DNA of 64,000 bases, taken from assembly GCA_903902325.1 (NCBI GenBank), contig CAIUUO010000123.1, positions 1 to 64,000 of the forward strand, read 5' to 3'. Numbering within the stretch: position 1 is the first letter of the stretch; each line of letters opens with the position of its first letter. Of the stretch, positions 9,735 through 31,794 are shown piece after piece. A model generated the notes under the pieces. The model did not search any database and was not told the DNA's origin. It saw only the letters and a program-made list of their open reading frames with translations. This stretch comes from an uncultured Bacteroidia bacterium (lineage in GTDB: Bacteria; Bacteroidota; Bacteroidia; Bacteroidales; Prolixibacteraceae). Made by a program: the position numbers and the translations under genes.

Positions 9735-9790
9735 TCCGTTTCTCTGTTTCGTCGTTTCCCAGTTTCATTCTTCTCTTTCATTTCTTTTCA
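9735..9790 (-). repeat. Irregular word repeat at the 3' end of a propeller gene
   Basis: On the minus strand the stop of the propeller gene (TGA at 9778-9780) sits in purine-rich sequence built from a GAAAC/GAAA word recurring every 7 to 9 bases. It resembles the stop-anchored repeats elsewhere in the window but is less regular. Confidence 0.45.
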
Positions 9791-10893
9791 CCAAACACAT
9801 AAATCCTGCCATCACCGGCTCCGACGACGATTTTGCCGGAACAAACGGCGGGGTTACCTGCGATCGGACTTCCCAGTTCATATTTCCAGAGTTCTTTCCC
9901 GGTTTTGAGATCGTGGATATAGAGAATTCCGTCCATGGTACCTGTAATGACCTTATTTCCTGCTATTACGGAAGATGACTCGATTCTGTTACTGGTTTTA
10001 ACCTTCCAGATCACTTTTCCTGAATTTTTGTCAAGACAATAGAGGAATCGATCCTGATTTCCAACCACGATGAAATCTCCGCTTAACGCCGGGGATGCGA
10101 GGAAAGGCAGGTTCATTCCCGGTTCCTTAAAATTCCAGACAATCTTTCCCACCTTCAGGTCCAGACAGAAAAATCGACCCTCGTAATCTCCCACAAAAGC
10201 AAGGTTTCCTTCAATCAGCGGAGAGGATGCGATGTACGTTTCGAGCTTGATTTTTTTGAATACTTTGCCGGTTTCTATGTTTACCAGGTGAATAAAACCG
10301 TCGCAACCGCCAAAAACGGCATATTTTTCATAAATAGCCGGTGCACCGTTGATGTAATTATCAGATTCATAGTGCCATAAACTATCCCCTTTGAAAAATC
10401 CTACTGCGTGTAGGTTGTAATCATAGCTGCCCACTAGCAATCTGATTTTCGAACCAACCTTGTACCAGTTGGCAGAACCCATGATCTGGTTATCCGTCTT
10501 GTATTTCCATATTTGCTTTCCGCTTTTCTCGTCCAGCCTGAAAAACCATCCGTCAAGCGTACCAAAAACCACTGAATTCTCAATCAGTAAAGCAGGTGCC
10601 TCAATCGAATTTCCGGATGCAAATTTCCATTTCATTTTTCCGTCAAAGCCAATTGCATACATATTCCCATCTGTTGATCCGCAGTAAATAGTTTGACCGG
10701 AAACTACGGGAGATGCCTTGATGTCATCCCCGGTAGGAAACGAAAACAACAAATGAGGAGACTCGGGTACGACTTGTGATGTAAAACCTGTTAATTGCTG
10801 GTTTCCTCTGAAAATAGACCAACTTTGCTGGCCATTAACGGCAGTGATTCCAATCAGGAAAACGAGGGACAGGAAAATGAGTCTATTCATCAT
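9778..10893 (-). CDS. PQQ-like beta-propeller protein (propeller E)
   Basis: Exported eight-bladed propeller of the PQQ_2/BamB type. I chose the ATG at 10893 (MMNRLIFLSLVFLIGITAVNG), a clear signal peptide, giving 371 residues. The mature part opens with WSIFRGNQQLTG and has recurring blade ends such as EKSGKQIWKY, NSGKVIWKV and KTGKELWKYEL. Such W-motif blades occur in quinoprotein dehydrogenases and in structural proteins like BamB; I see no reason to assign bound PQQ. It lies 592 bases downstream of the flavoprotein gene, beyond a small convergent ORF, so it probably has its own promoter. It shares the N-terminal FRG motif with the four propellers upstream and seems part of the same locus. 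Confidence 0.88.
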   Translation of the reverse strand: MMNRLIFLSLVFLIGITAVNGQQSWSIFRGNQQLTGFTSQVVPESPHLLFSFPTGDDIKASPVVSGQTIYCGSTDGNMYAIGFDGKMKWKFASGNSIEAPALLIENSVVFGTLDGWFFRLDEKSGKQIWKYKTDNQIMGSANWYKVGSKIRLLVGSYDYNLHAVGFFKGDSLWHYESDNYINGAPAIYEKYAVFGGCDGFIHLVNIETGKVFKKIKLETYIASSPLIEGNLAFVGDYEGRFFCLDLKVGKIVWNFKEPGMNLPFLASPALSGDFIVVGNQDRFLYCLDKNSGKVIWKVKTSNRIESSSVIAGNKVITGTMDGILYIHDLKTGKELWKYELGSPIAGNPAVCSGKIVVGAGDGRIYVFGEKK

Positions 10894-11316
10894 GAAATCA
10901 GTCAATTGACAGTTGATAATTGACAATTGACAATGTAAAATGGATCCGAAGGAAGGTGAAATGCCGGGGAAAAGGCGAAACTCAAATTTATTCACACAAC
11001 AATATATTATGAATGTTATTTACAGCAGATAAAATTACCAAACTATTCGGGTTAAACTAAAGGCTTGCATTGAAAGAAATTTCATGCATTTAAATGATTT
11101 GCCATGTTTTTTTCTAATATTTGGAATAGTTATAAACAATTGCCTGTTAATATATGACTTTATGCAGGAATTCAGATAATTATGAGTATCTTGCAACAAT
11201 TCTGCCATTCAGGGACGGTACTTCACTTCAATGTAAAAAGCGACTCTGACTTAAGCCACATTCGCTTAAAACTTTCAGGCAGTGATCGGATATTTCAAAT
11301 TTAAATACCAGTTATT
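10894..11316. other. Intergenic region between propeller E and the small convergent ORF
   Basis: AT-rich sequence of about 420 bases. Apart from the TTGACAA repeat at its left end I see no gene, RNA or clear promoter motif. It should hold promoters for two divergent genes: propeller E on the minus strand and the small ORF on the plus strand. Confidence 0.4.
10902..10934. repeat. Short repeat just upstream of propeller E
   Basis: Three imperfect copies of TTGACAA/AATTGAC (7 bp) lie 8 bases before the start codon. The same word recurs at 62813-62832 between two unrelated genes. Confidence 0.6.
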
Positions 11317-11490
11317 ATGGCCTCAAATCACAACTACGATAAGAAACCTACCACATTTGTTTCTCCGGATCTTTCTAAATTACAAGCCGTTGTCATTGAC
11401 GTAAAGACCATTCTTTACATTGCACTTGATGCTGATCCGGTTTTGGCCAAAAGCAGTTATTTGTCCAGGGTAGGTATGAAGAAATTATAG
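11317..11490 (+). CDS. Small hypothetical protein, 57 aa
   Basis: An ATG at 11317 opens a 57-residue frame that starts MASNHNYDKKPTTFVSPDLS, contains LDADPVLAKSS and ends SRVGMKKL. It has a balanced composition, no signal peptide and no membrane segment. The middle (KLQAVVIDVKTILYIALDAD) could form a helix or strand. It is the only plus-strand frame in this part and converges on the flavoprotein gene, overlapping its stop codon by six bases. I do not recognise a family. The protein-like composition and exact convergent end suggest a real gene, but evidence is limited. Confidence 0.5.
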   Translation: MASNHNYDKKPTTFVSPDLSKLQAVVIDVKTILYIALDADPVLAKSSYLSRVGMKKL

Positions 11491-13053
11491 ATTTAATTGC
11501 TGTTCTTCGTTAAACATGGCAAGAGCCCCTGTCGGACAAGCCTTTGCCACATCCAATGACGTGTTTTTTAGACCTTGCTCAATTTTTTCATTGAAAGGGA
11601 CTCCTATTTTTACTTCAAAACCACGCCCGATAAAGGTCAATCCAAACTCCTCCCGGTGATTGCTTGTAAGTTGGACGCATATGCCGCATTTGATGCATTT
11701 GGACGGTTCGTAGACAATGCCTTCGCGATGAATAAGTTTCTCTACAGTTTTCCGCTCTTCGCCTTTAAATCTTTTTTGATCAGCAAGGTAATGGTTTGAA
11801 TATTCCCGCAACAGGCAGGATTCCGGCTTGCGGCAGTCGCAATGCATGCAGCGCCTGGCCTCCATCATGGCAGAATCAATTGTGAAACCTTCCTTTCCGG
11901 CACTTTGTCGGGGAAAAGTCTCAGAATCCTTGAGGTAATGGATAAATTCCTCCGTCATCAACTTTCCAAATTTTGAATTGAATCTTGCCGGATAACCCTT
12001 CATCTCCCCTGAATTCAAATATCGGTCAATCACAGCAGCTACTTCTTTGCCCTGGCCAACCGACCGAACAGCCATTTTTGATGTCCGCAGGGCATTACCT
12101 ACTGCAAATACATGACGTATGGAGGTTTGGTAACTGAATTTGTCCGCTACGATCCCCACATTATTGGTTGCTAGTCCATACGGAATTCCATCGGTTGAAG
12201 GCGTACCAGTTGCAACGACAATTGCATCGAATTCCTTTAAAAAATTAGCAAACCGCTCCTTGTCAATGGTTTCATTGACATGAATTTGAACTCCCAATGA
12301 TAAAATTTCATCAATTTCCAATTTGATGGTATCATCTGGCAGGATTTCTTTGTCAATTTGCAAAAGGGTACCTCCCGGTCTGTCAGCCTGCTCGAACAGG
12401 ATGGCCTGATGGCCTTTTATTTGCAGGTAATACGCGGCCGCCAGACCGGCTGGACCGGATCCAATGATGGCGACAGTTTTCCCGGAAGGATCTGAAATCT
12501 TTGGACGATATGGCTGAACACTATTTAAATCTTCATCACCGACAAACCTTTTCAGTGTGCAAATAGATACTGCATCGTCCACCTGTTTGCGCCTGCAGGC
12601 CGCTTCGCAAGGTGCCGGACATATCAACCCCAGAATGGAAGGAAGTGCGATATCCCGCTTGACAACCTCCAGCGATTTTGCAAAATCTCCTTTTGCAATC
12701 AACCTGTTCATCAACGGGATATTCATGTGTGCCGGACACACAGACTGACAAGGAGCCTCGCAGTCACCCACATGTTCACTGAGTAATAACTCCAGTGCTG
12801 TTTTTCTGGATTCCGTTACTTCTTCGTCGTTTGTTACAATGATCTGACCTTCGGATACCGGAGTTGAACAAGAGGCAAATAGCTGCCCGTTTTTTGTGTT
12901 CTTGACCAGACAAACCATGCAGGAAGCGATGTGGCCTGTCTCTTCCATGTAGCACATCACAGGAATGTCAATCCCGGCAGATTTGGCTGCCTGCCAGACG
13001 GAAGTGCCTTCCTGGGCTTCGATTTGCCGATTGTCTATTGTAAGGTTTATCAT
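11485..13053 (-). CDS. Fe-S flavoprotein: [2Fe-2S]-DPYD/GltD-like FAD-[4Fe-4S] oxidoreductase subunit
   Basis: Cytoplasmic redox protein of 522 residues (ATG at 13053, MINLTIDNRQ). Order: a NuoG/HydA-like [2Fe-2S] domain with Cys near 33, 44 and 47 and a fourth near 63; a Cys-rich segment H-x3-C-x3-C-x3-C near 96 that merges into the [4Fe-4S] helical domain of glutamate synthase and dihydropyrimidine dehydrogenase (CPAPCEAACRR near 147); an FAD-binding GSGPAGLAA near 200; and a C-terminal ferredoxin-like part with CIKCGIC near 454 and CPTGA near 505. Only about 118 residues separate GSGPAG from the second FAD motif (FAVGNA), too few for the usual inserted NAD(P)H-binding domain. Electrons would therefore come from the NuoEF-type partner encoded upstream. 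Known relatives work in electron bifurcation, but the reaction here is unknown. Confidence 0.85.
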   Translation of the reverse strand: MINLTIDNRQIEAQEGTSVWQAAKSAGIDIPVMCYMEETGHIASCMVCLVKNTKNGQLFASCSTPVSEGQIIVTNDEEVTESRKTALELLLSEHVGDCEAPCQSVCPAHMNIPLMNRLIAKGDFAKSLEVVKRDIALPSILGLICPAPCEAACRRKQVDDAVSICTLKRFVGDEDLNSVQPYRPKISDPSGKTVAIIGSGPAGLAAAYYLQIKGHQAILFEQADRPGGTLLQIDKEILPDDTIKLEIDEILSLGVQIHVNETIDKERFANFLKEFDAIVVATGTPSTDGIPYGLATNNVGIVADKFSYQTSIRHVFAVGNALRTSKMAVRSVGQGKEVAAVIDRYLNSGEMKGYPARFNSKFGKLMTEEFIHYLKDSETFPRQSAGKEGFTIDSAMMEARRCMHCDCRKPESCLLREYSNHYLADQKRFKGEERKTVEKLIHREGIVYEPSKCIKCGICVQLTSNHREEFGLTFIGRGFEVKIGVPFNEKIEQGLKNTSLDVAKACPTGALAMFNEEQQLNL

Positions 13054-13089
13054 ATTATTTATTAGACTAGTCTGTCGAAATAGTAGAAA

Positions 13090-13197
13090 TTTTACCACAA
13101 AGGACCCGAAGGTTAAAAATTAAGTTCACAAAGCGAATATAATCAATGATATAGCTTTGTGTACTTTGTGTTGCCTTAGTGCCCTTTGTGGTTAAAT
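13090..13197. repeat. Palindromic repeat element between redox genes
   Basis: About 108 bases in the 173-base gap between the flavoprotein and NuoEF genes. The outer arms carry ACCACAAAGG (about 13094-13103) and CCTTTGTGGT (about 13183-13192), with near-matching flanks. Inner copies are TTCACAAAGC (about 13125) and GCTTTGTGTAC (about 13154), plus ACTTTGTG. It can fold as a long nested hairpin and looks like a small interspersed repeat or degenerate MITE. It could also lower expression of the downstream gene. Confidence 0.6.
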
Positions 13198-13226
13198 ATG
13201 ACTTTTTATTCATCCTCCTGGATTGA

Positions 13227-15584
13227 TTAATGAATTTCTACGGCATCCACCGGGCAAACTGTCCTGCAGGCATCACATTTGATGCACAGATCATGGATGA
13301 CTTCATGTTTATGATGCGGTTTGAACAAAATCGCCTCTGTCGGACATTTCTGCGCACACAAGGTGCAACCAATGCATAAATCATTGATTTCATAGCGGAT
13401 CAATCCGGTGCATTTCCCGGAAGGACATTTCCCGTCGATATGGGCCAGGTATTCTTCCCTGAAATATCTGAGGGTAGAAAGTATCGGGTTTGGGGCCGAT
13501 TTTCCCAGACCACACAAACTTCCCTTTTTCGTCCAGCCAGCCAGATATTCGAGTTCATCCAAATCTTTCAAAGTGCCTTTACCTACCGTGAATTTGGTGA
13601 GGATGTCCAGCATTTTCTTAGTCCCAACGCGGCAGAAGGTGCACTTGCCGCAGGATTCATGCTGTGTGAAGGAGAGAAAATAGTGGGCAATGTCGACCAT
13701 GCAGTCATCCTCATCCATGACCACCAGGCCGCCTGATCCCATCATGGCGCCGACTTTGAGCAGGGATTCGTAGTCGATGGGTGTATCGTACAATTGCATG
13801 GGTACGCATCCCCCCGAAGGCCCACCGATCTGAACTGCCTTGAATTTCTTCCCATTTTGAACGCCTCCCCCGATATCCTCCACGATCTGGCGTACCGTAA
13901 TGCCCATGGGGACTTCAATGAGTCCGCCCCTGTTGATCTTTCCTGCAAGGGCGAAAACCTTGGAACCTTTGCTTGTCGCGCTGCCAATGGAGGAAAATTT
14001 TTCGGATCCTTCCAGGATGATGTAGGATACCTGTGCAAAAGTTTCTGTATTGTTGATAAGCGTAGGCATTCCCCACAATCCCTTTTCGGCAGGGTAGGGG
14101 GGACGTATCCGCGGAAAACCGCGCTCCCCTTCGATGGAAGCGATCAGGGCCGACTCCTCACCACAGACAAAGGCTCCGGCACCTTCATAAATATCTATTT
14201 CGAATGAGAATCCGGAACCCAAAATGTCTTCACCAATAAGGTTGTTTTCCCTGCAATAAATCAGCGCCTGGCGAATTCGTTTGACTGCAAGCGGATATTC
14301 GGCACGGATATAAAAATATCCATGTGTGGCATTTACTGCCTTTGCGGCAATCAGCATTCCTTCAATGACCCTGTAGGGATAGGATTCAAGCAGCATCCGG
14401 TCCATGAAAGCCCCCGGATCTCCCTCGTCTCCGTTGCAGATCAGGTATTTTACTTCCGTTTTTTGTTCCGCTGCAATTTTCCATTTGATCCCAGTAGGAA
14501 AACCTGCGCCTCCGCGACCACGCAAGCCGCTCTCCTTGATATGCTGAATAATTTGCTCTCCCGACAGGTCCGCCAGTGCAATTTTCAATGCTTCAAACCC
14601 TTGATGAGCCTTGTATTCATTCAAATCAAGTGGGTTAATGATGCCACGGTACCTGGTAGCGATCGGGATTTGCTGGTCCAGGAAATCTGTGACCTGTTTT
14701 TCACGCGCATCGATGGAGTATTGTTTGACACCTTCCCAGACGGAACTGGTTTGGACATTTTCAAAAAAGCGGTAAATGTTGTTCTTCAGTTTGTTGAAAT
14801 AGCCCGGAGGTTTGAAGTGAGTCGCAATAATTCCCTGAATATCTTCGGGTTTTACTTTGGCATACAGAATTGGTGATTGATTATGCGGAATCACCTCGAC
14901 GAGAGGAACCTGGTGGCACATTCCGACACAACCTACATTTTTCAGGCTCACCCTGATGCCGCTATTTTCCACTGTCTCTTCCACGGCCTTTTTTACCTCC
15001 TCGCTTCCGGATGCCACACAGCATGAACCCAGCCCAATCCTGATTTCCCCTTGTATATGATCGCCTTTCATGCTGCGGAATATACCCTTTTCCGATTTTG
15101 ATGACCCTGCATGCATTTCGAAGTCCTCCAGCATGTTTTCTATTTTATCGGAGGATACATGCCCATAGGTGATTTCGTCGATCTGAACGACAGGAGCCAG
15201 GGTGCAGCAACCTAAACATGCTACCCTTTCTATTGTATATTTTCTTGAAGCATCCGTTTCTTCCTCTGCTGTGAGTTTGAAGTGACGGCGGATCGCATCA
15301 TGGACATGGTCTGCGCCCTTGACGTGGCAGGCTGTTCCGACACAAACCTTGATGATGTGTTCTCCTACCGGATGCATCCTGAACTGCGAATAGAATGAGG
15401 CCACACCGATGATCTGATCATTGGTGATATCCGTTTTGCGGCAAACGTACCGGAGCGCATCTTCAGGCAGGTAATTGAATTTCTGCTGAATGGCCTGCAG
15501 GATTGGAATGACGGATCCTTTTGAACGTCCTTTCTGTTCAATGATCCTGTCAACCTCCTGGTATATGGCTATTTGTTCGTTCAC
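13227..15584 (-). CDS. NuoE-NuoF-ferredoxin fusion, NAD(P)H-oxidising subunit (HydC-HydB-like)
   Basis: Cytoplasmic 785-residue protein that should accept hydride from NAD(P)H on FMN and pass electrons along Fe-S clusters. Residues 1-155 are NuoE/HydC-like, with [2Fe-2S] ligands in CVGTACHVKG (near 86) and CLGCC (near 126). Residues about 178-260 form a second thioredoxin-like [2Fe-2S] domain (GSCC near 187 and CVGMC near 224). Then follows NuoF: FMN loop GRGGAGFPTG near 358, NADH site GDEGDPGAFMDR near 388, SLBB region, [4Fe-4S] motif SCGKCTFCRVGT near 650, and two C-terminal [4Fe-4S] sites (CIGCTLCAQKCP, CIKCDACRTVCP). This is the order of HydB of electron-bifurcating hydrogenases with HydC fused in front. 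No hydrogenase subunit is in the window; the flavoprotein encoded next is the likely partner. Confidence 0.92.
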   Translation of the reverse strand: MNEQIAIYQEVDRIIEQKGRSKGSVIPILQAIQQKFNYLPEDALRYVCRKTDITNDQIIGVASFYSQFRMHPVGEHIIKVCVGTACHVKGADHVHDAIRRHFKLTAEEETDASRKYTIERVACLGCCTLAPVVQIDEITYGHVSSDKIENMLEDFEMHAGSSKSEKGIFRSMKGDHIQGEIRIGLGSCCVASGSEEVKKAVEETVENSGIRVSLKNVGCVGMCHQVPLVEVIPHNQSPILYAKVKPEDIQGIIATHFKPPGYFNKLKNNIYRFFENVQTSSVWEGVKQYSIDAREKQVTDFLDQQIPIATRYRGIINPLDLNEYKAHQGFEALKIALADLSGEQIIQHIKESGLRGRGGAGFPTGIKWKIAAEQKTEVKYLICNGDEGDPGAFMDRMLLESYPYRVIEGMLIAAKAVNATHGYFYIRAEYPLAVKRIRQALIYCRENNLIGEDILGSGFSFEIDIYEGAGAFVCGEESALIASIEGERGFPRIRPPYPAEKGLWGMPTLINNTETFAQVSYIILEGSEKFSSIGSATSKGSKVFALAGKINRGGLIEVPMGITVRQIVEDIGGGVQNGKKFKAVQIGGPSGGCVPMQLYDTPIDYESLLKVGAMMGSGGLVVMDEDDCMVDIAHYFLSFTQHESCGKCTFCRVGTKKMLDILTKFTVGKGTLKDLDELEYLAGWTKKGSLCGLGKSAPNPILSTLRYFREEYLAHIDGKCPSGKCTGLIRYEINDLCIGCTLCAQKCPTEAILFKPHHKHEVIHDLCIKCDACRTVCPVDAVEIH

Positions 15585-15599
15585 ATTTTCTATTTCAAA

Positions 15600-17453
15600 T
15601 TATTTGGATCCAAAGCAGAACAACTGATTCATCCCCCGAATGTAAACCTTCCCATCCGTGAAAACGGGAGAACAGACTGCTTTTTCACCCAATTCCGGAG
15701 TACCCAACAATTGGTAATCCTTGGTAGCTTTAACGATGTGGGTTTTCCCCGACATATCCGTGATGTATACTTTCCCGTCGGCATAGACTGCTGAGGCATA
15801 AAATGGATCACCGTATTCCTGACTCCAGTTTTTCTTGCCCGTCTTGGCGTCGAAGCAGGCAAAAACGCCATAGGAGGTGGCAATGTACAACAATCCCTTT
15901 ACCGCCATCGGGCTGGATACCTCAGGAAGAAATTCGTCGGATTCCCAGGCTATAGCCGGAGTGGCACCGAGTTGGATGCCAACCAGTTTGGCATATTCGT
16001 TGGCGGCAAAAACCATTCCGTCGGCATATCCAACCGAAGGGCCGACCTCTCCTGAAAGGCAATCGACAGACCAAAGTTCCTTGCCGGTTTCCGGATTGTA
16101 ACTACTCACATTGGGATTGGTGGAAAGAATGACTTCCATGCGGCTTCCGGTATTGATGAGGGCCGGGGAGGACCAGGAAATTTTTGATTTTCTGAGTGTT
16201 TCCCAGGCGGTCTCACCCGTCTTGGTAGAGAGCGCGATCAGTTTTCCTGCTTTGTTGGTATCATACTGGACGAGCAATTTATCCTTGTAAATAATCAGCG
16301 AAGAGGAATGTCCGTAATGATTGTCTGGCATTCCCAGGTTTCGCGCCCATAACCTTTTGCCTGTGAGGTCGAATGCGATTACATCACCTGTGGCGAATAT
16401 GGCGAAAACGGCCCGGCCGTCTGTGGCCATGGTTGGCGCTGCCAGTCCGGTATCTGTTGATACTTTTGGAATGCCGGCAGTCGAACCTTCAATCTTATCG
16501 GCTGCGGCTTCCCATAATAGTTTGCCGTTGTTTTTGTCGTAACAATACACCATGCGTGCCTGGGCATCCGCACCTGTCACAAAGAGTTGGTTTCCCCAGA
16601 TAATCGGAGAGCTGAAACCTGGTTTGGGAATTTTTACCTTCCAGACAAGATTCTTTCCCGTATTACCGTTCCATTCCGTCAGGGTGTTCTTCTGGTAAGC
16701 AATTCCAATGCCTTCGGCCCCGCGAAAAAACGGATAATTGGTTTTTAATTCAGCCAGTGTTGGGAATGCCAAAACAGCAGCGATTACAGGTTGTTTTGGA
16801 GGTTCAGCTGCTACCTTTGCTTTTGTTGAGTCAACAGTTTTAGATTTCTGATTCTCTATTCGGGAGAAGGTTTTTGCAGCTATTTCCGATGAAGTAGTCG
16901 AGGGATTCTGAATTGGTTCTATGGCAGTAATTACTGCCTTTTCTTCTTTTGCAACTGGACTTTCCTCTGTCTTGTATTCGTTCAGCATGTTGGTTGATAA
17001 AAATCCGGAAACCAGGGCCAGGAGCAACAAGCCCGCACCTGAATAGATGATCCACTTTCTTGCCATCAGTTCATCCAGTCCTTTAACGTGTTCGATCTGA
17101 TCAATCTCACCAGGCTTTGTGGTAATGGAAGAAATGGTCCTGACAGAAAGTATGGCAATCAGGACACCCAGGATCAGGAGATAGCTTCCTGTTCGAATTT
17201 GCCAGTGGCTTGTAAAGTAGGCTTTTCTGGCCATCAGGTCGAATGCCCTGATTTCCCCCTTCAGGTTTTCATCTGCCGGATTCTGGCTCAGCCGTTTGAC
17301 AAGGGCAGGAATCGTTTTGTTGTTGATCGGGTCGTTCAGTTTTGTTTGAACGAAGTTGGCAATCAACAGTACAGACATCGCCACGGAGAAAATGGCGGCA
17401 AACCAGCCAATCCTGCCGGCGAGTTTGATTTTATCGTTGTCTGAGAAATTCAT
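15600..17453 (-). CDS. Membrane-anchored PQQ-like propeller protein (propeller D)
   Basis: 617 residues. Three membrane segments lie near 15-35, 88-106 and 132-152, with a 50-residue loop after the first. A flexible Thr/Ser/Lys/Ala-rich linker (about 155-225) follows, then a PQQ_2 propeller that opens FPFFRGAEGIGIAYQ and contains blade ends such as NNGKLLWEA, TGETAWE, TGKELWSV and TGKKNWSQEY. With three segments the propeller should lie in the periplasm if the N-terminus is cytoplasmic. The gene sits 15 bases upstream of the NuoEF fusion, so it is cotranscribed with a cytoplasmic dehydrogenase, which suggests a physical or functional link across the membrane. No haem or copper site is visible. 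Confidence 0.88.
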   Translation of the reverse strand: MNFSDNDKIKLAGRIGWFAAIFSVAMSVLLIANFVQTKLNDPINNKTIPALVKRLSQNPADENLKGEIRAFDLMARKAYFTSHWQIRTGSYLLILGVLIAILSVRTISSITTKPGEIDQIEHVKGLDELMARKWIIYSGAGLLLLALVSGFLSTNMLNEYKTEESPVAKEEKAVITAIEPIQNPSTTSSEIAAKTFSRIENQKSKTVDSTKAKVAAEPPKQPVIAAVLAFPTLAELKTNYPFFRGAEGIGIAYQKNTLTEWNGNTGKNLVWKVKIPKPGFSSPIIWGNQLFVTGADAQARMVYCYDKNNGKLLWEAAADKIEGSTAGIPKVSTDTGLAAPTMATDGRAVFAIFATGDVIAFDLTGKRLWARNLGMPDNHYGHSSSLIIYKDKLLVQYDTNKAGKLIALSTKTGETAWETLRKSKISWSSPALINTGSRMEVILSTNPNVSSYNPETGKELWSVDCLSGEVGPSVGYADGMVFAANEYAKLVGIQLGATPAIAWESDEFLPEVSSPMAVKGLLYIATSYGVFACFDAKTGKKNWSQEYGDPFYASAVYADGKVYITDMSGKTHIVKATKDYQLLGTPELGEKAVCSPVFTDGKVYIRGMNQLFCFGSK

Positions 17454-17828
17454 TCTATTCCAATTAATTTTTTTAAGCTATTGGCTGTTAGCGATTAGCT
17501 ATTGGTTAAAACTCAAATTTGATTCAATAAGATTGCAATTGCACGCTATCATAATTTGTTCCCATCCTTTCTGATGTCTAATCACCCTTTGGACACATTG
17601 GACTCTTAAGACATTTAAGACTGCAACTCCACATAGGGTAAATACTCAATTTATCGCTTTCCTCACAATTTATTTTAACACCCCTTCTGTTATGCCCAGA
17701 ATAAATTCTAATCATCACATCAACTCATCTTCCCCGTTCTCATCCTTTCGTCCTTCCGTCGTCCCAGTCCCAAAGTCTCCTAGTCCCCAAGTCTTTTTTG
17801 GTCGTCCAAGTCGTCCACTCGTCCCAAG
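17454..17828. other. Intergenic region with word repeats
   Basis: 375 bases between the NapH-like gene and propeller D. At 17751-17831, starting at the TGA stop of the NapH-like gene on the minus strand, words built from GACTTGG and GGACGA recur irregularly. Near the other end (17477-17506) a TAGCTATTGG/GTTAGC word recurs. The middle holds no gene that I can support. Confidence 0.5.
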
Positions 17829-17831
17829 TCA
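17751..17831 (-). repeat. Stop-anchored irregular word repeat after the NapH-like gene
   Basis: Reading the minus strand, the stop TGA runs straight into CTTGGGACGAG, and variants of GACTTGG, GGACGA and GGGAC follow for about 80 bases. Confidence 0.55.
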
Positions 17832-19094
17832 TTCCTTGACCGGACAATACGGCATGCACCTTGCACAACTCAGGCAGTTGGTCTGATCCGGTTCCCAGTC
17901 CTCCCTTTTCCTGAAAGTGGATAAGCGAATCAGGCTCATTCCGATCACAAGTCCCATAAAACCACCCAGAATCAAGCTGCCGGTTTCGAATTGTTTTCTA
18001 ATGACTACTGCCTCAGCAATAAGTTTATCCATAGACTTGCCCAGACTCATAAAAGTCCTCACATCGATGTTATTGGGATCATTTTTTACTTCCGGGTGCT
18101 CAATGATTAAATCTGCCAGGTACACCGTTCGGTTGAAACGCGAGAGTTGTACGTGCATTTTGGATCCCGCATAGCCTCCTATCCCGATCCAAAACGGTAA
18201 AACCAGGAAATAGACCATCAGCCTGTAAACGTTGCTGCGTCGCTTTCCGGTCTCTGCTACAGGTTCATTGATAGCTCCGAAAGGACAAGAGTTGGCACAA
18301 AGTTTGCATTGAATACATGCAGAAGGAGTAATTTTCATGTGGTGGGAGGAAAACCTCGACATCCATCCCAGCAATACGCCATACGGACAAAAAAATCTGC
18401 AATAGGGCCTGGCTACAAATACTCCAACCAGTAAAAACAAAATACCGAGTACAAGCATGTGGAAAGGCGCGTCCCATCTGAAAAACCCTACAAACGGATC
18501 GTATCTGCAGATGATGAATTCAGATTTGGTTGCAACAAGTAGTACCGCCAGTCCCAGGTACAAAAACGGAATTAGTCCGAGTACTTTCTGCAGCCATTTG
18601 GGGAGTTCAATCGGTTTGAAGGCGATGAGATCCTGTATGGCGCCCAATGGACAAGCGCCGGCACAGAAAATGCGACCGGCAAATAGGGCGAAGATTAGTG
18701 GAAGAAGGAAAAATATCAGTGCCGTAACCGGTATGGCATAGGTCGGATCAACAATGCCCAAAACCACATTCTGAACGGATCCAACTGCACAGATGCAACC
18801 TTCGCGGTACCATCCGAAATAGAGAAGGCTGAATGCCGAAACCCAAAAGACACCCCTCCTTGATCTTTTTTTAAGAACCAACCATGTCAAGATGAGCATG
18901 ACTGCCAGCAAAACGGTCACATCAAGGTATTCGAGTAACTGAAATCTTGCAGCAGGAGCAGTTGTATTCGGCTGACTGTAACCAGTTGCAAACTCCGGTT
19001 TGGGAAACCTTTGTTTGGATTCGGCAGCCATGGAGTTGACAGTTCCAAAAGCCAGTATGACCAGAAAGAATATATATTTTAAAAATCGATTCAT
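17829..19094 (-). CDS. NapH/NosR-like membrane Fe-S protein
   Basis: 421-residue inner-membrane electron carrier. It has an N-terminal signal-like segment, then about six further membrane segments. Motifs: GCICAVGS near 100; C-x3-CP motifs in CAGACPLG (near 147) and CRFFCPYG (near 231), typical of NapH, NosR and related quinol-linked proteins; CRYDPFVGFFRW near 196; a [4Fe-4S] motif CIQCKLCANSCP near 264; and a second, CLSCARCMPYCP, ending three residues before the C-terminus. In NapGH the membrane protein oxidises quinol and passes electrons to a periplasmic ferredoxin; the Tat-exported ferredoxin gene just upstream gives the same pairing here. No FMN-binding domain of NosR is present. The terminal acceptor is not encoded nearby. 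Confidence 0.88.
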   Translation of the reverse strand: MNRFLKYIFFLVILAFGTVNSMAAESKQRFPKPEFATGYSQPNTTAPAARFQLLEYLDVTVLLAVMLILTWLVLKKRSRRGVFWVSAFSLLYFGWYREGCICAVGSVQNVVLGIVDPTYAIPVTALIFFLLPLIFALFAGRIFCAGACPLGAIQDLIAFKPIELPKWLQKVLGLIPFLYLGLAVLLVATKSEFIICRYDPFVGFFRWDAPFHMLVLGILFLLVGVFVARPYCRFFCPYGVLLGWMSRFSSHHMKITPSACIQCKLCANSCPFGAINEPVAETGKRRSNVYRLMVYFLVLPFWIGIGGYAGSKMHVQLSRFNRTVYLADLIIEHPEVKNDPNNIDVRTFMSLGKSMDKLIAEAVVIRKQFETGSLILGGFMGLVIGMSLIRLSTFRKREDWEPDQTNCLSCARCMPYCPVKE

Positions 19095-19130
19095 CTGTTG
19101 TTTCAGTGGAGCTTATTGCCTTTTTATTTT

Positions 19131-19156
19131 GTTACAGGTTACAAGTTACAGGTTAC
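19131..19156. repeat. GTTACAG/GTTACAA tandem repeat before the NapH-like gene
   Basis: Four 7-bp units alternate GTTACAG and GTTACAA, about 37 bases before the start of the NapH-like gene. The same word lies in the same relative place (before a start codon) at 22460-22485. Confidence 0.65.
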
Positions 19157-19180
19157 GTAAAATCGCGATTAAAGCATTTT

Positions 19181-19257
19181 TTCCTTTTTCCTTTATCCTT
19201 TTTCCTTTATCCTTTATCCTTTATCCTTTTTCCTTTATCCTTTATCCTTTATCCTTT
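19181..19257 (-). repeat. Stop-anchored AAAGGAT repeat overlapping the ferredoxin 3' end
   Basis: A 7-bp unit (AAAGGAT on the coding strand, with AAAGGAAA variants) runs for about 77 bases. The last residues of the ferredoxin (KDKG) and its TAA stop at 19242-19244 are encoded by the repeat itself. Because 7 is not a multiple of three, stop codons recur in all frames. Confidence 0.75.
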
Positions 19258-19835
19258 GCAGGAGTCTTCCTGAATCCACCCTTGATCTGGTAGGGCTTAT
19301 CTGCTGGAATGCGGCTGATTGCTTCTGCCGGACAAACCCTGGCGATGGCGCATTCGTTGCAGTTTTTGCAAAGGTTGTGCCTGATCTGAAGGTGCAGTGA
19401 GCCATTCCCGAAAGATGTGCATCCGGCCACACACTTGGCACAACCGATGCAAAGGTTCTCGTCAATGACATATTCGTAGAACGGATCTTCAATGAACCTG
19501 CGTTGAATGGCGGCAGTGGGGCAAAGCTGGTTTTCGGCAGCTGTGCTCCTGGCGTTGGGATCGGGCTTGAGGTATCCTCCGCACAAATCGCAATAACCGC
19601 AAAGGTTATAGGCATGCACACACTTAACAGCCGAAGGCATCCTTACGCATTCGGTGGCACATCTTCCGCACTGTACACATTTGAACGGATCGATCTGCCA
19701 TACCATTCCGCTGGCCCTGGTTTTTTTGACAGACAATGCTGCCACTCCGACCAGGGTACCGGCCAGTGCCAATTGCATCCCGTTGCGGATGAAGCGGCGT
19801 CTTTCAATATTTTTTGGTTCGGAGTTATCTTGCAT
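19242..19835 (-). CDS. Tat-exported polyferredoxin (NapG-like)
   Basis: 197 residues. The N-terminus has a twin-arginine motif (ERRRFIRNG) followed by a hydrophobic stretch, so the folded protein is probably exported with its clusters. Cys motifs: CVQCGRCATEC near 54; CGYCDLCGG near 80 with a later CPTAAI; CIGCAKCVAGC near 130; and CKNCNEC with CPAEAI near 157. This gives about four [4Fe-4S] clusters, as in NapG-type periplasmic ferredoxins. It overlaps the small Tat protein upstream by 11 bases, which suggests translational coupling, and precedes the NapH-like gene. The last four residues (KDKG) come from the AAAGGAT repeat. Likely role: passing electrons from the membrane protein to a periplasmic partner. 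Confidence 0.88.
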   Translation of the reverse strand: MQDNSEPKNIERRRFIRNGMQLALAGTLVGVAALSVKKTRASGMVWQIDPFKCVQCGRCATECVRMPSAVKCVHAYNLCGYCDLCGGYLKPDPNARSTAAENQLCPTAAIQRRFIEDPFYEYVIDENLCIGCAKCVAGCTSFGNGSLHLQIRHNLCKNCNECAIARVCPAEAISRIPADKPYQIKGGFRKTPAKDKG

Positions 19836-20031
19836 TGGATTTTAACTCCTTTTTTGCTGGTTCCAGCGAACATACACTCAATTTTCCGCAATTCCGGCAG
19901 AACTGATTGTCATTGCATCCGTTCATACTGATCCTTTTCTTCAACACTAAAGCTGCAGATCCGCCCACAAGAACCGTAAGGCAGCTATATTGCCCGACTT
20001 TCCTGAAAAAATCCCTTCTATTTGTTTCCAT
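19825..20031 (-). CDS. Small Tat-type protein with a C-x5-C-x2-C-x5-C site
   Basis: 68 residues with start METNRRDFFRKVGQ, a twin-arginine motif (NRRDFFRK) followed by a hydrophobic stretch up to residue 30. The short mature part has four Cys at 39, 45, 48 and 54 (spacing 5, 2, 5), plus Cys17 in the hydrophobic stretch. The even spacing suggests a metal or Fe-S site. The gene overlaps the NHL-type gene upstream by 14 bases and the ferredoxin downstream by 11 bases, so it is surely translated as part of the operon. I know no named family. It may be an electron carrier or assembly partner of the ferredoxin; this is inference. Confidence 0.75.
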   Translation of the reverse strand: METNRRDFFRKVGQYSCLTVLVGGSAALVLKKRISMNGCNDNQFCRNCGKLSVCSLEPAKKELKSNAR

Positions 20032-20995
20032 TCACATTTTTTTCGAAAATACGTACCTGTTTTCTGTCAAAATCCAGGGCCAATATCCTCTGATTGACAT
20101 CAATGGCCAGATCGGGAGCATACCATCCGTTGTCAAACAATTGAGGTGCCGCAACAATGCCTTGCAGTACACCGTGCTGGTCATACAATTTGATGCGCGG
20201 AATGCCTTTTTCAGCCGTAACAAATGAATTATCAGGCAAGATAGCAAACTGCGCAGGATTGCAGCATCCGATAAATCCATCAATTTTTACGGAGGATTCA
20301 CCCCATGCCGTGCGCAACGACCCGTCGTGGTTGTAATTTTCAAGGCTGTGACGGCCAGTGTTTGCCACCCAAAGGAAACCATTGTCGTCCAGGGCCAGAT
20401 CAAAACAGGGACTCGGAATGATATATCCGGGAACTCCTTTCTGCTCATTTTTCTCTCCGATTTTTGAAAGAATTTCCCCGTTGGTATTGCATTGATATAC
20501 GATTCTGTTGCCAGCATCAGCCACATATACTGTCTTACCGGAAACTGCCAGAGAGGTGATGACGGAGTTTTCGTCAAAATTCTTCCATCTAGTGAGTAAT
20601 TTGCCATTAGCATCAAAGGAGGCAACTGAATGCAGCATGCCAATCCATATCTGGTCTTTTGTAACAGGGGCAATGCAGTTGGCCGTATCCGGAAGTTCAA
20701 ACCTGGACAGTTCCTTGCCGGAATAATCATACCTGATCAATTGTTTTTCAGTCAATACCAGGATTTGCTTGCCTGCAACTGCAATGCCTTTGGGCGAACT
20801 GTCGTTAACCTGAAATGTTTTGATCTCATTGTATAGTACGGTGGTGGAATCGATTTTTTTGAATTGATCTACATCCAGCTTGTATGGATTATCCATATTT
20901 TTCCCGGCCTTGTTTCCGATAAAATCCTTGCCGATAATGAATACGATAGCCAGTGCAAGGATAACCAGGATAATATTGATGTGCTTTCTTTTCAT
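20018..20995 (-). CDS. Membrane-anchored NHL-type (six-bladed) propeller protein
   Basis: 325 residues from the ATG at 20995 (MKRKHINIILVILALAIVFI), which leaves 5 bases after propeller C; a longer reading would overlap that gene. One N-terminal membrane anchor is followed by a periplasmic propeller with NHL-like repeats: KGIAVAGKQILVL, ITSLAVSGKTVYVADAGNR, CFDLALDDNGFLWVANTGR and DLAIDVNQRILALD. This differs from the PQQ_2 propellers around it. It ends in an overlap with the small Tat protein gene. Such propellers often bind proteins or ligands; no catalytic residues can be named. Confidence 0.82.
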   Translation of the reverse strand: MKRKHINIILVILALAIVFIIGKDFIGNKAGKNMDNPYKLDVDQFKKIDSTTVLYNEIKTFQVNDSSPKGIAVAGKQILVLTEKQLIRYDYSGKELSRFELPDTANCIAPVTKDQIWIGMLHSVASFDANGKLLTRWKNFDENSVITSLAVSGKTVYVADAGNRIVYQCNTNGEILSKIGEKNEQKGVPGYIIPSPCFDLALDDNGFLWVANTGRHSLENYNHDGSLRTAWGESSVKIDGFIGCCNPAQFAILPDNSFVTAEKGIPRIKLYDQHGVLQGIVAAPQLFDNGWYAPDLAIDVNQRILALDFDRKQVRIFEKNVNGNK

Positions 20996-21000
20996 TTTTT

Positions 21001-22419
21001 TTAGTTTACCGTTACACAATACATGGTTTTTGAATCTCGCAACAACAATTTGCCATCCACAAGGGCCATCGGAGCCCATGCATCACTGCCGTCAAACAGT
21101 TTTTTCTGAGCCAGTTGTATGTATTTTTTTCCATCCGGCTTGATCAAGGTCAAGGTTCCGTCATCGCTCAATATGAACATTTTGTTGTCGCCGATCAGAT
21201 AAGGTCCCAGTCCGAAACGACCTTCCTTTCCGGAGGTCCACAGTGGTTTGGTCACATCTTCCGGACTGACACAAATCAGTTGGTTACGAAGCGGACCTGC
21301 ATCCTTGGGCTGAATTCCGAAAATCAATCCATTCCAGACGATGGGAGTCTGCTGCTCACTTGCCATTCCGTCCTTGGGGAAATATTCTTTCAGTACCTTA
21401 ACGGAATATCCATTATCTGACGTAGATACCTGAATCATCATGCTGCCGGCGCCATATCCTGCACTTAGGAACACCTTGCCATCCGGCAGGCAGACCGGAG
21501 CAGGAGCAACGACAGCATGGTTCCAGGCATTGGATTGCCAGAGGATCTTACCCTCGTCTGCACCTTCTGCCGAAATTCCTACCACTCCGCCCACTGCACT
21601 GTAAACATACATTTTTTTGCCCTTAAATGTCCAGGGCATGACGGAGGAGTGTGACATTTTCAGGTTGCCGGGATTGGGCGTTTCCCACAGAATTTTTCCA
21701 GTTGCACAATCGACAGCAGCCAGAATGGCCGTACCTCCCGGCGCCAGGATTACCCTGTTGTGGTCTATCATCGGGCACTGGCCGGTGAACCACAGGGGAA
21801 CTTCGGATTTGTATTGTTTTACCATGTCGATGCCCCACAACAGATCTCCTGATTCACGTTTGACACACATAACATGACAGCGGGGACCTATCGTGACAAC
21901 AAAATCTGAATTGACAGCCGGCACAGTGCGGGACATACCGTGATTTCTTTTCAAAATCACCCGGTATGAACGTCTCCACAACTCTTTTCCATCCTTCAGC
22001 GAAAAACAGCGCAACGCATCTTCACGCTTCTCTTCGTCGTAATCCATGAGATATACTCTACCCTCATAAACTGCAGGTCCTGCATGGCCTTCGCCCAATT
22101 CGACAGACCAATTGATGGCCGGTTGATTTTCAGTCCAGCTATTTTTTAGCTGAACAGGATTGGCGCTGATATTGTCGTAATTGGCTCCCCTGAAATTCGT
22201 CCAGGAGGCTTTTGAATCGGAAGTTGTATTCCAAAAGAGTTGAAATTTCTCGCCGATATTCACTATTTCTTTGACCATCATCGAGTCGTTACCACGATTG
22301 TCCTGGCCGGGCATGCTTTCATGAAACTGACGGGTAGGATCCCTTAGCAGCCACCAGACAAGCAGCGATACAGCCAATGCAGGAATTAACCAGCCGATAT
22401 ATTTTAGGTCAAATTTCAA
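21001..22419 (-). CDS. Membrane-anchored PQQ-like propeller protein (propeller C)
   Basis: 472 residues. A single membrane segment near 8-25 (YIGWLIPALAVSLLVWWLL) anchors the protein. After a linker the propeller starts WTNFRGANYDNIS and has blade ends such as LKDGKELWRRS, ATGKILWE and EGKILWQS, with LVDGKLLLRDSKTMYCV at the end. The gene is 118 bases downstream of propeller B and 5 bases upstream of the NHL-type gene. It should sit on the periplasmic face of the inner membrane. Family (BamB/quinoprotein-like repeat) is clear; cofactor and role are not. Confidence 0.88.
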   Translation of the reverse strand: MKFDLKYIGWLIPALAVSLLVWWLLRDPTRQFHESMPGQDNRGNDSMMVKEIVNIGEKFQLFWNTTSDSKASWTNFRGANYDNISANPVQLKNSWTENQPAINWSVELGEGHAGPAVYEGRVYLMDYDEEKREDALRCFSLKDGKELWRRSYRVILKRNHGMSRTVPAVNSDFVVTIGPRCHVMCVKRESGDLLWGIDMVKQYKSEVPLWFTGQCPMIDHNRVILAPGGTAILAAVDCATGKILWETPNPGNLKMSHSSVMPWTFKGKKMYVYSAVGGVVGISAEGADEGKILWQSNAWNHAVVAPAPVCLPDGKVFLSAGYGAGSMMIQVSTSDNGYSVKVLKEYFPKDGMASEQQTPIVWNGLIFGIQPKDAGPLRNQLICVSPEDVTKPLWTSGKEGRFGLGPYLIGDNKMFILSDDGTLTLIKPDGKKYIQLAQKKLFDGSDAWAPMALVDGKLLLRDSKTMYCVTVN

Positions 22420-22459
22420 CTTGAAATAGCTTTTTTACTTAAGACTTCTATCTGGTAAT

Positions 22460-22485
22460 GTTACAAGTTACAGGTTACAAGTTAT
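22460..22485. repeat. GTTACAA/GTTACAG tandem repeat before propeller C
   Basis: Four 7-bp units, the same word as at 19131-19156, again about 40 bases upstream of a start codon and downstream of a stop-anchored repeat. Confidence 0.65.
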
Positions 22486-22514
22486 AGGGCACTTTTTGAT
22501 CAGCGCTTTTCTTA

Positions 22515-22548
22515 CTTTAGCCTTTCAACTTTAGCCTTTAGCCTTTAA
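22515..22548 (-). repeat. Stop-anchored GGCTAAA repeat at the end of propeller B
   Basis: The unit on the coding strand is AAAGGCT/GGCTAAA (7 bp, one interrupted copy). The last residues KG and the TAA stop of propeller B (22538-22540) lie inside it. Confidence 0.65.
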
Positions 22549-23782
22549 TATTGTAGACAAAGAGAACATCTCCGTGCCGCAAATACAATTTCCCATTGGA
22601 AATGAACGGATGCGACCAGAAAGGGCCGTTTCCACCTTTCAGTTTAAAAGAACTGATCACTTCAAATTTCTCGGGATTCGGCCTGACCAGTCCGACTGTT
22701 CCCGACTTTTCCTCCATGACGTAAAAGTACCCGTCGGCATAAATCATAGCTCCTTTCGTATTCCACTCCTCTTCGTACTTTTTCTCACCGGTTTCCCAAT
22801 CCAGGCAGATCCACTTGCCCTTGCTGTTGCTTTCCCAGTTGGAGCCATAGACAAATCCATCCTTTTCAATCACCCCATGGTGATGGTTATCCAGAATCTT
22901 ATTGCTCCATTTTTCAGTTACACCGGTTCCCTGGTCGTTCATGTGAAGCATCATGTTCGGGTAATTGTATCCAATCGTTAAAAATATATCCAGACCCTTG
23001 AATGTTGGTATATTGCACCAAATCAGATCTTTATCGTTGTCTTCAATCTTTTTTTCATCGAAGTACCTGTATGTCCAGGCAATTTTGCCGGTGGCAGGTT
23101 CAAGTGCGATCAGATTTGTTGTGGTAACTGCGAGAATGAAACGAAACTTTCCGTATTGATAGATGGTGGGAGAGGCATAGGCACGCTGGCCACCTACCGG
23201 GACACTTTGCCACATCAGTTTTCCTGTCATCTTATCGAAGGCAGTGACGGAGGTCTTGGTACCTGCGGGTGTGCAGATCACTTTGTCGTCCACGATCAGG
23301 GGTGATTCAGAAACACCCCAGTTAAACCAGGTTGCCTGGTACTCCTTGTCGACATTCACTTTCCACAAAATTGAACCATCTTCCAGACTGATGCACGCCA
23401 GTTCCCCGATACCGCTGATCACATAAATGCGGTTTCCATCGATGGTAGGAGTACTTCTTGTTTCAGGAAAAGATTTGGCCCACGAATGTCCGTAAGGAAC
23501 TTTCCATTTGAAAGTACCATCGGTTTTAATGCATGATAAATAATCAAGCGTATCGATCATTCCGGTAGCAAATATACATTGATCTGTAGCCACCACGGAG
23601 GAATATCCCTTACCGATGCCTTCCACTTTCAACAGCAGTTCAGGACCACCTTCGGGCCAGATTTTCAGTAATCCGGAATCGGGGAATTTTCCGTCACGCT
23701 GCGGTCCCCGAAATTGAACCTGCTGGGACTGAACGAAAAAATACAACAACAAAAAAACGACTGTAATGTTAATTCTTCTCAT
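22538..23782 (-). CDS. Exported PQQ-like propeller protein (propeller B)
   Basis: 414 residues with a signal peptide (MRRINITVVFLLLYFFVQSQ). The mature part begins VQFRGPQRDGKFPDSG and continues WPEGGPELLLKVEGIGKGYSS, a signature also seen in propeller A, so A and B are paralogues from a duplication. Blade ends include EDGSILWKVN, MTGKLMWQS, ATGKIAWTY and WETGEKKYEE. No membrane segment after the signal, so it is probably periplasmic or on the surface. There is no C-terminal type IX sorting domain. The gene follows propeller A after 49 bases that consist of a 10-bp tandem repeat. Function unknown. Confidence 0.88.
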   Translation of the reverse strand: MRRINITVVFLLLYFFVQSQQVQFRGPQRDGKFPDSGLLKIWPEGGPELLLKVEGIGKGYSSVVATDQCIFATGMIDTLDYLSCIKTDGTFKWKVPYGHSWAKSFPETRSTPTIDGNRIYVISGIGELACISLEDGSILWKVNVDKEYQATWFNWGVSESPLIVDDKVICTPAGTKTSVTAFDKMTGKLMWQSVPVGGQRAYASPTIYQYGKFRFILAVTTTNLIALEPATGKIAWTYRYFDEKKIEDNDKDLIWCNIPTFKGLDIFLTIGYNYPNMMLHMNDQGTGVTEKWSNKILDNHHHGVIEKDGFVYGSNWESNSKGKWICLDWETGEKKYEEEWNTKGAMIYADGYFYVMEEKSGTVGLVRPNPEKFEVISSFKLKGGNGPFWSHPFISNGKLYLRHGDVLFVYNIKG

Positions 23783-23840
23783 TATTTCAATCTATTTCAA
23801 TCTATTTCAATCTATTTCAATCTATTTCAATCTATTTCGA
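23783..23840 (-). repeat. Stop-anchored 10-bp tandem repeat between propellers A and B
   Basis: Four perfect copies of TCTATTTCAA (plus strand) with diverged copies at both ends fill the whole gap. The end copy supplies the last residues (ISK) and the TAG stop of propeller A at 23832-23834. Confidence 0.85.
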
Positions 23841-25046
23841 AATTTTATATGCAATCAGCGTATCCCCATGCCTTACATATAAAACTCCCTTGTCAATCAC
23901 CGGATGAGCCCAATGCTGTTCTGATCCCAGGGTGACTTTTGTACTGCTGATCGCTTTAAACTCTGCTGGATCCGTCTTTGCCAAAAACAGCTCTCCTTTT
24001 TCGGTATATCCAATCAAATACTTGTTGGCTGCGATGACAACTCCCTTAAAAAATTGCTGGGAGGAATATTTTTTTACGCCGGCTATCCAGTTGATGCATT
24101 GCCAGCTGCGATCGGCATCACCCGAGCCATAAAGGTAACCATCGATGACAACGGCTCCACCCATGCGGCTATCGAAGCTTTTCAATATCCATTCTTTAGT
24201 CACAGAACTGCCATCTGCCCCTAATTTCAGCTTTTCAGCGCCCTGTCCCCAGCCACTAAAAAGCAGGATGCCTCCATCATAAAAAACAGGCGTATTGGCA
24301 TGGGCAGCCCATTGGTTGGGGTGTTCAAATGACCAAAGCAGTTTTCCGGTAGCAGCATCGATCCCCAACACATGATTGGCCATGTGGGTGACCAGCAGTT
24401 TCCGGGATGGTAACTGGATTAGCAATGGAGTACAATAGGCCGACAACTCTCCAAGTCCGCTGCAATTCCAGATCGTCTCACCTGTCATGCGGTTCAATGC
24501 CATTACGTTGTTGGTCTTTCCCCCCGGTGTGCAGAACAGTTTGTCCCCGTCGATTACAAGGGACTCCGTGATACCCCAGGTAATATTGGCGCCATCCATC
24601 TGTGAAAAGAGTTCCTTTTCCCAGACCGGTTTGACCGATTTCAAATCCAAACATACAACTTTACCCATGCCCGTCAAAAGATAGGCCATGTCTCCGACAA
24701 TTGTAGGTGTCGATCTGCATCCAGGATAACTTTCTTCAAACTCTTTTCCATATTTGAATCGCCGGAGTTCTTTCCCGCTTTGATCAAGTACGAATAAAAC
24801 TGCCTGACCGTCTATCATTCCTGTGATGAAAATTTTATTGTTGGCAAATGCAGGCGAAGAAAATCCCTTACCCAGTCCATTGTGTGACCATAGAATTTCA
24901 GGGCCTTGGGAGGGCCATTCCGGCAAAAGTTGATCCACATTGTAAATTCCCGAAGAATTAGTTCCCCTCCATTGAGTTGCAATCTGTCCACTGGATGTGA
25001 TACACAGATATCCGATAAGAAATAAGAGTGCTGTCAATTTTTTCAT
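23832..25046 (-). CDS. Exported PQQ-like propeller protein (propeller A), first gene of the redox locus
   Basis: 404 residues with a signal peptide (MKKLTALLFLIGYLCITSSG). The mature part starts TQWRGTNSSGIYNVD and continues WPSQGPEILWSHNGLGKGFSS, matching propeller B. Blades carry MTGETIWN and ATGKLLWSF. It has no membrane anchor or sorting domain. The gene is first in the row of minus-strand redox genes, with a 335-base gap upstream holding a promoter candidate and two hairpins. Its C-terminal three residues come from the 10-bp repeat. As for the other propellers, the role could be ligand binding, scaffolding or catalysis; nothing in the sequence decides. Confidence 0.88.
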   Translation of the reverse strand: MKKLTALLFLIGYLCITSSGQIATQWRGTNSSGIYNVDQLLPEWPSQGPEILWSHNGLGKGFSSPAFANNKIFITGMIDGQAVLFVLDQSGKELRRFKYGKEFEESYPGCRSTPTIVGDMAYLLTGMGKVVCLDLKSVKPVWEKELFSQMDGANITWGITESLVIDGDKLFCTPGGKTNNVMALNRMTGETIWNCSGLGELSAYCTPLLIQLPSRKLLVTHMANHVLGIDAATGKLLWSFEHPNQWAAHANTPVFYDGGILLFSGWGQGAEKLKLGADGSSVTKEWILKSFDSRMGGAVVIDGYLYGSGDADRSWQCINWIAGVKKYSSQQFFKGVVIAANKYLIGYTEKGELFLAKTDPAEFKAISSTKVTLGSEQHWAHPVIDKGVLYVRHGDTLIAYKISK

Positions 25047-28181: not shown

Positions 28182-28856
28182 TTAACCTAAACATAGGAGG
28201 TTAACCGTTCTGTTGTTACGGTAAACGATGCTGGCAGTTTCCCCGTTCGGACAACTAAATGTTTTTTTATTGAATTTTCTCAGTAAGATATCATTTTTCT
28301 CGAAACCGCTCACATTGACAGACCCAAGGTTATCTATCAATCCAACTCCGGTAGCTTTCAAAAAGGCCTCCTTCAAAGTCCAGATTTCAAGAAAACGATC
28401 CGGTAGCCCTCCATTTTTGCAATAATCAGCTTCAACTGGTGAGAATGCATATTCTACAAGTGATGCTAAATCCTCTGTGCCGGACAGTTTTTCAATGTCT
28501 GCACCGATTTTTCCACCGATGCAAAAACCAAGAAGCCAGGAACTATTTGTATGGCTTACATTGAAATAGAGATCAGATGTTGACAGATACAATCTGCCAA
28601 ATCTGTTTTTTTTCAATTCAATTTCGGCCGGCTCTGATTTCAGGTAGGATCCAAGCATGGTCCTCAATGCAACATGACAGGATAACCAGGTATTTCTCTC
28701 GCTAATTGATTTGATCCGGTTTCCTATGGCAATTTCATCCCTTGTCAGAACTGAACTGGATAAGGCTATATCCGATGTTCGGCTCGTACCATAGACTACA
28801 AGCACATCCTGAGAGGATTTTAATGTTGGTATTACATCAAGGGTTTTCCAAATCAT
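28182..28856 (-). CDS. 4'-phosphopantetheinyl transferase (Sfp type)
   Basis: Transfers the phosphopantetheine arm from CoA to the carrier domains of the NRPSs. 224 residues, typical of the Sfp/AcpT group. Motifs: NRFGRLYLS, NVSHTNSSW, GADIEKL (Mg2+-binding D-x-E, near 118) and WTLKEAFLKATGVGL (near 157-170). Its place in the same cluster as two NRPS genes gives the function directly. It is 33 bases downstream of the beta-helix gene. A 166-base AT-rich gap without a gene lies before ugd. Confidence 0.93.
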   Translation of the reverse strand: MIWKTLDVIPTLKSSQDVLVVYGTSRTSDIALSSSVLTRDEIAIGNRIKSISERNTWLSCHVALRTMLGSYLKSEPAEIELKKNRFGRLYLSTSDLYFNVSHTNSSWLLGFCIGGKIGADIEKLSGTEDLASLVEYAFSPVEADYCKNGGLPDRFLEIWTLKEAFLKATGVGLIDNLGSVNVSGFEKNDILLRKFNKKTFSCPNGETASIVYRNNRTVNLLCLG

Positions 28857-28889
28857 GCAACAAGTTAATAATTGGTTTTGCTTTCAGAA

Positions 28890-30587: not shown

Positions 30588-30593
30588 AAATTT

Positions 30594-31784: not shown

Positions 31785-31794
31785 AGATTATCAG

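Follow-up and report, generated by a model that had tools for sequence, protein, structure and literature searches.

The small protein sTat, encoded beside a Tat-signal ferredoxin, appears to be a conserved and so far uncatalogued subunit of an exported-ferredoxin complex, and its partnership with that ferredoxin (Fd197) is well supported by sequence comparison. In the reading preferred here, to which a probability of about 0.5 is assigned, sTat serves Fd197 as a dedicated accessory subunit, with an anchored, periplasmic Cys domain that most likely holds one [4Fe-4S] cluster and would extend the electron path of the ferredoxin. The reality of the gene, the conservation of its Cys residues, and its tight association and fusion with Fd197 are established at the level of sequence, and sTat is very probably a working part of an uncharacterized machine that moves electrons across the inner membrane. 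The names used here are labels of this report: sTat for a 68-codon open reading frame (ORF), Fd197 for the adjoining ferredoxin, and likewise NHL353, PQQ404, and others; the window is the whole 64,000-nt stretch of DNA that was analyzed.

The sTat ORF (19825..20031) lies on the minus strand and, read from its ATG at 20031 to 19825, encodes the 68-residue protein METNRRDFFRKVGQYSCLTVLVGGSAALVLKKRISMNGCNDNQFCRNCGKLSVCSLEPAKKELKSNAR; the sequence-only reading had given coordinates without a strand, and the plus strand across this region is interrupted by stops. An R-R-D-F-F start leads into a single hydrophobic stretch, which together form the signal or anchor (residues 5-30) placed before a domain with cysteines C39, C45, C48, and C54. 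These residues make an exact C-x5-C-x2-C-x5-C motif; four Cys residues had indeed been described, and the "even" spacing ascribed to them is loose, being symmetric (5-2-5). The ORF of the upstream propeller gene NHL353 (20018..21079, minus strand) overlaps sTat by 14 nt, and that of the downstream Fd197 gene (19242..19835, minus strand) by 11 nt, so that both overlaps reported earlier for the operon neighbors are correct. In the six-frame translation of the window, the motif occurs once, with a mean random expectation of 0.033 per window (first-order Markov windows); none of these random windows had the motif with R[RK]xF upstream. sTat is a real gene, of the small kind that had been flagged as easily missed in annotation, and its reading frame stays open and conserved in relatives from several phyla, which also answers the question, raised at the time, of coding in related genomes.

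When 149 related genomes were searched at the protein level, dozens of free-standing ORFs of similar length came up. All four Cys residues, whose conservation in homologues the sequence-only reading had singled out as a check, are present in 72/72 distinct sequences, with the exact C-x5-C-x2-C-x5-C spacing in 69 and a first gap of x4 in two and x8 in one. The residues between them vary, and the only invariant positions in an alignment of 38 relatives are R5 and the four cysteines; the window protein and an Akkermansia-titled copy share 31% identity over 58 residues. sTat was found in 88 of 120 genomes of the family (Prolixibacteraceae by record titles) and in scattered families of the order. 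It was also located, via the adjoining ferredoxin, in MAGs titled Akkermansia, Lentisphaerae, Oligosphaeraceae, and Phycisphaerae (Planctomycetota), a spread outside Bacteroidota that comes from one contig scan and from MAG titles that may err for single contigs.

Profile matches in a wider phylum sample, where scoring was limited to the 15 best candidates of each genome, look like chance (partial, many with internal stops, E > 0.001), and plasmids gave no match. The window protein has no match in Pfam, NCBIfam, PHROG, or PDB (best E of 0.45 in the PDB sequence search with the sTat profile), and the 38 relatives, searched singly against Pfam and NCBIfam, gave scattered weak matches only. No description of sTat or its cluster was found in open-licence papers. 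A histidine-kinase match in genome G018 was set aside, the likeness consisting of the common stretch GCGxxxxCxxC only. A PAS-type histidine kinase (L068:7214-8371) contains GCGTSEACRYC, a C-x5-C-x2-C with the spacing of the first three Cys residues of sTat, possibly a metal or haem site, or chance.

Tat targeting, as first proposed, is predicted for the window copy by the twin arginine (RRDFF) before the hydrophobic segment, and TatC is encoded in the same genome (215 bits); in the family, the signal appears relaxed. The twin-arginine position reads RR in 44 of the 72 distinct homologues, RK in 22, and otherwise in 6, so that the second Arg is not conserved across the family, although it is in Fd197: among 70 sTat/Fd197 pairs, RR is found in Fd197 in 70/70 and in sTat in 45/70 (exact McNemar p 6e-8, an optimistic value, given the shared ancestry of the genomes). 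Tat may well accept RK as a signal, because in G111 an sTat-like RK signal is the sole one on the ferredoxin, with no separate sTat. A mature part of about 35 residues, as originally described, presupposes cleavage, and an AxA-type site is not conserved, a crude pattern being found in just 11/72 homologues. The hydrophobic segment is therefore probably an uncleaved anchor rather than a cleaved signal, with the Cys domain outside, an arrangement compatible with Tat export. Between the segment and the first Cys, K/R is nearly always present among the 72 homologues.

Fd197 has 16 near-invariant Cys residues in four CxxC-type groups, which would give room for four [4Fe-4S] clusters, and one less conserved Cys; in the phyla named above, its core shares at least 56% identity with the window copy. 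Among the 120 genomes of the family, Fd197 occurs in 91, including every one of the 88 with sTat, and sTat is absent from all 29 without Fd197. The three genomes with Fd197 and no sTat comprise a contig end (G800), a divergent paralogue (G023), and a different arrangement (G020). At the level of the order (295 genomes), Fd197 was detected in 48 (two of them divergent, at E near 1e-35), and the 28 genomes with strong sTat matches all fall within these 48. Furthermore, the two frames overlap in 50/70 non-redundant pairs and lie at most 30 nt apart in 61/70. The strongest evidence for a physical partnership is provided by in-frame sTat::Fd197 fusions in three other families (G581, G599, G674), in which the sTat signal is followed by the four-Cys domain and then by a ferredoxin core without its own signal. 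The Tat-type N-terminus of the fusions comes from the sTat part and, because each is one protein, the Cys domain and the exported ferredoxin are expected on the same side of the membrane. Thus, the earlier suggestion of a complex with the ferredoxin is well supported, sTat never occurring without Fd197, their frames being coupled, and fusions having arisen in three families; metal binding, suggested alongside it, is plausible by analogy.

In the loci examined, sTat occupies a fixed place in a conserved gene order, all on the minus strand in the window. The block begins with the propeller PQQ404 (23832..25046), followed by two more propellers, PQQ414 (22538..23782; often two copies) and PQQ472 (21001..22419), and by NHL353, whose N-terminus carries a hydrophobic anchor and whose true start is probably an internal MKRKH... 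After sTat and Fd197 come a NapH-like polytopic membrane 4Fe-4S protein (17829..19094; 57.5 bits against PF12801, cut-off 22, and 51.8 bits against TIGR02163, below the cut-off), the membrane-anchored PQQ-like propeller PQQ617 (15600..17453), and a NuoE-NuoF-Fer4 fusion (13227..15584), a cytosolic NADH-type dehydrogenase module. The order covers Lentisphaerae-, Phycisphaerae-, and Akkermansia-titled MAGs among the sTat loci examined. In the window, NuoEF is followed by a 2Fe-2S/Fer4_20/FAD oxidoreductase (11485..13098, minus strand; NuoG-N plus GltD-like) and then by a PQQ-like propeller (9778..10995, minus strand) at the cluster end; a counterpart of the oxidoreductase adjoins NuoEF in other loci.

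Taken as a whole (9778-25046), the cluster keeps its order across Bacteroidota and partly in Planctomycetota-, Lentisphaerae-, and Chitinispirillales-titled MAGs, with up to six propeller genes round one electron-transfer core. The window's own genome gave no FMN_bind match, so this cluster seems to lack the flavin carrier known from other NapH-like systems, although in an assembly of 304 contigs a missing match is no proof. The same genome (G000) encodes an NqrB/RnfD-type protein (L242:5780-6769) apart from any rnf/nqr operon. Elsewhere in the window (28182-41092), one strand carries large NRPS-like ORFs (34472-41092 and 31795-34437), a glycosyltransferase-like ORF (30594-31784), and an ORF resembling phosphopantetheinyl transferases (28182-28856).

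Within the order, some dozen clusters with Fd197, including that of G111, have no sTat-like ORF upstream, a count that is an upper estimate of loss, as some contigs are short or broken. Because such clusters exist, sTat is regarded as an accessory subunit and not as essential to the machine. In two genomes (G592, G666), the sTat position is taken by a small protein that has a hydrophobic segment but neither RR nor the first Cys, its motif being C-x2-C-x5-C, and these variants, like the lack of a conserved cleavage site, count against a strict Tat requirement; C-x2-C-x5-C looks like the core motif of sTat. Four others (G112, G617, G683, G020) have in its place an NHL protein that begins with a Tat-type segment and ends in C-x2-C-x3/4-C. 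Tat-type NHL propellers ending in C-x2-C-x3-C-PLR (L216:2185-3231, L238:9422-10450) replace sTat in some families, and in G020 one Tat-type Cys-ending NHL propeller adjoins an ordinary NHL gene. In two Lentisphaerae-titled MAGs (L148:1973-2350, L149:7869-8477), the sTat region appears broken or merged with the ferredoxin signal; in L148, its parts are spread over two frames, through either a degraded gene or an assembly error.

In the proposed mechanism, the Arg-rich, hydrophobic N-terminal segment of sTat would be embedded in the inner membrane and hold the Cys domain in the periplasm, where the C-x5-C-x2-C-x5-C loop would pack beside Fd197. The C-x2-C-x5-C core and the first Cys would most likely hold one [4Fe-4S] cluster, a cluster type that we infer, and this cluster would dock to, or extend, the electron path of Fd197. 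With NuoEF inside and Fd197 outside, the simplest arrangement would link NAD(P)H to Fd197 and sTat by way of the NapH-like protein: electrons would pass from NAD(P)H to the NuoEF-like module, across the membrane via the NapH-like protein, and to Fd197/sTat and periplasmic partners, or the reverse, both the flow and its direction being what we infer. AlphaFold2 did not model the Cys domain reliably, either in sTat (pLDDT of about 55 over the motif) or in an sTat::Fd197 fusion (mean pLDDT of 55), and structural comparison of the fusion model returned weak ferredoxin-like matches (Z <=3.5), mainly over the ferredoxin part.

The shortness of the motif and the variability of its spacer residues would also suit a structural or assembly subunit, whose cysteines bind zinc or form two disulfides and whose anchor tethers Fd197 or guides NapH docking without electron transport. 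For a loop of 16 residues with four Cys, zinc binding or disulfide formation in the periplasm is just as conceivable, some variants retain just three cysteines, and absence from about a dozen similar clusters is as expected of a helper. However, the Cys domain remains joined to the ferredoxin in the fusions, and the motif is all-Cys, never His, with a core matching that of the RseC [4Fe-4S] domain; a purely structural role is accordingly judged rather unlikely, if worth keeping in view. A short protein adjoining a Tat substrate, with overlapping frames, could likewise be a dedicated export partner that escorts Fd197 through Tat with no lasting role, and TIGR02811 ("formate dehydrogenase region TAT target"), although its similarity is weak, describes a comparable small Tat gene by a redox enzyme. 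Yet Fd197 has its own RR in all 70 pairs while sTat often lacks it, the opposite of what an escort needs, and a persistent fusion would defeat such a role, which makes this explanation improbable.

Equally, the Cys spacing is that of RseC, whose domain is cytoplasmic, and variants with RK or otherwise without RR are not necessarily exported by Tat, so that sTat might be pictured as facing the cytoplasm, where it would act as an RseC-like redox relay or regulator for the NapH/NuoEF machine. Here the fusions are again informative, as their Cys domain shares a side with the exported ferredoxin; moreover, an anchor before the Cys domain and a positive N-terminus favor an N-in/C-out topology, and in RseC the Cys domain is followed by two helices, the profile match also not being significant. 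A cytoplasmic location is therefore considered highly improbable, and the periplasmic accessory subunit of Fd197 is retained as the preferred reading.

sTat represents a conserved small-protein family absent from four libraries and offers a way into a widespread gene cluster of so far undescribed role. Should it bind an Fe-S cluster, sTat would rank with the smallest redox subunits linked to Tat and would show an RseC-type Cys motif at work on the other face of the membrane. Direct tests of the complex are possible with the natural sTat::Fd197 fusions.

With respect to known systems, sTat resembles Fer4 ferredoxins in having four cysteines in a small protein, joined in the fusions to a ferredoxin, but differs from them in lacking the CxxCxxCxxxC signature and any Fer4 match (Pfam, NCBIfam). 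The cluster resembles the NapGH, NosR, and PceC systems in pairing a NapH-like membrane protein with a Tat-exported ferredoxin in the NapG position; it differs from them in its coupling to a NuoEF module and propellers, with no FMN-binding domain found in its own genome, and Fd197 scores 10.8 bits against MauM/NapG TIGR00397 (cut-off 178.85). We know of no sTat counterpart in known NapGH systems. NapH-like proteins are viewed as modular electron carriers across the membrane and are used with different redox partners (PMC8238504).

The closest parallel to sTat, as distinct from family membership, is RseC/MucC (PF04246), a partner of the Rsx/Rnf complex. In vitro, the CX5CX2CX5C N-terminal domain of E. 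coli RseC can be reconstituted with a [4Fe-4S] cluster that is sensitive to oxygen; the last three cysteines matter and are the conserved core of the domain (PMC11729352). sTat shares this motif, the C-x2-C-x5-C core (whether or not another Cys precedes it by five residues) being present in 72/72 homologues, and also the character of a membrane-bound accessory to a transmembrane electron-transfer complex; the analogy in cluster binding is drawn from motif spacing. RseC differs in having two transmembrane helices after its Cys domain, where sTat has one hydrophobic segment before it, and in having cytoplasmic domains and no Tat-type N-terminus; furthermore, Bacteroidales RseC lacks the first Cys and keeps C-x2-C-x5-C, whereas canonical sTat always has it. 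The window protein has no match to PF04246, two of the 38 relatives reached E 0.15 at best, and hhalign of sTat against Bacteroidales RseC profiles was not significant (probability 1.2, E 0.044, over 17 columns round the cysteines), leaving a link by descent unsupported. The cluster was also rejected as an Rnf/RseC replacement, RseC occurring in genomes with and without sTat (61 relatives); the window's own genome gave no RseC match. Going beyond the preferred reading, it may tentatively be proposed that sTat represents a minimal [4Fe-4S] subunit of a new, periplasmic kind, the outer-face mirror image of RseC, and that it is the hallmark of a so far undescribed family of electron exporters, linked to NAD(P)H, built on NapH, partnered by propellers, and common to Bacteroidota, Planctomycetota, and Lentisphaerae.
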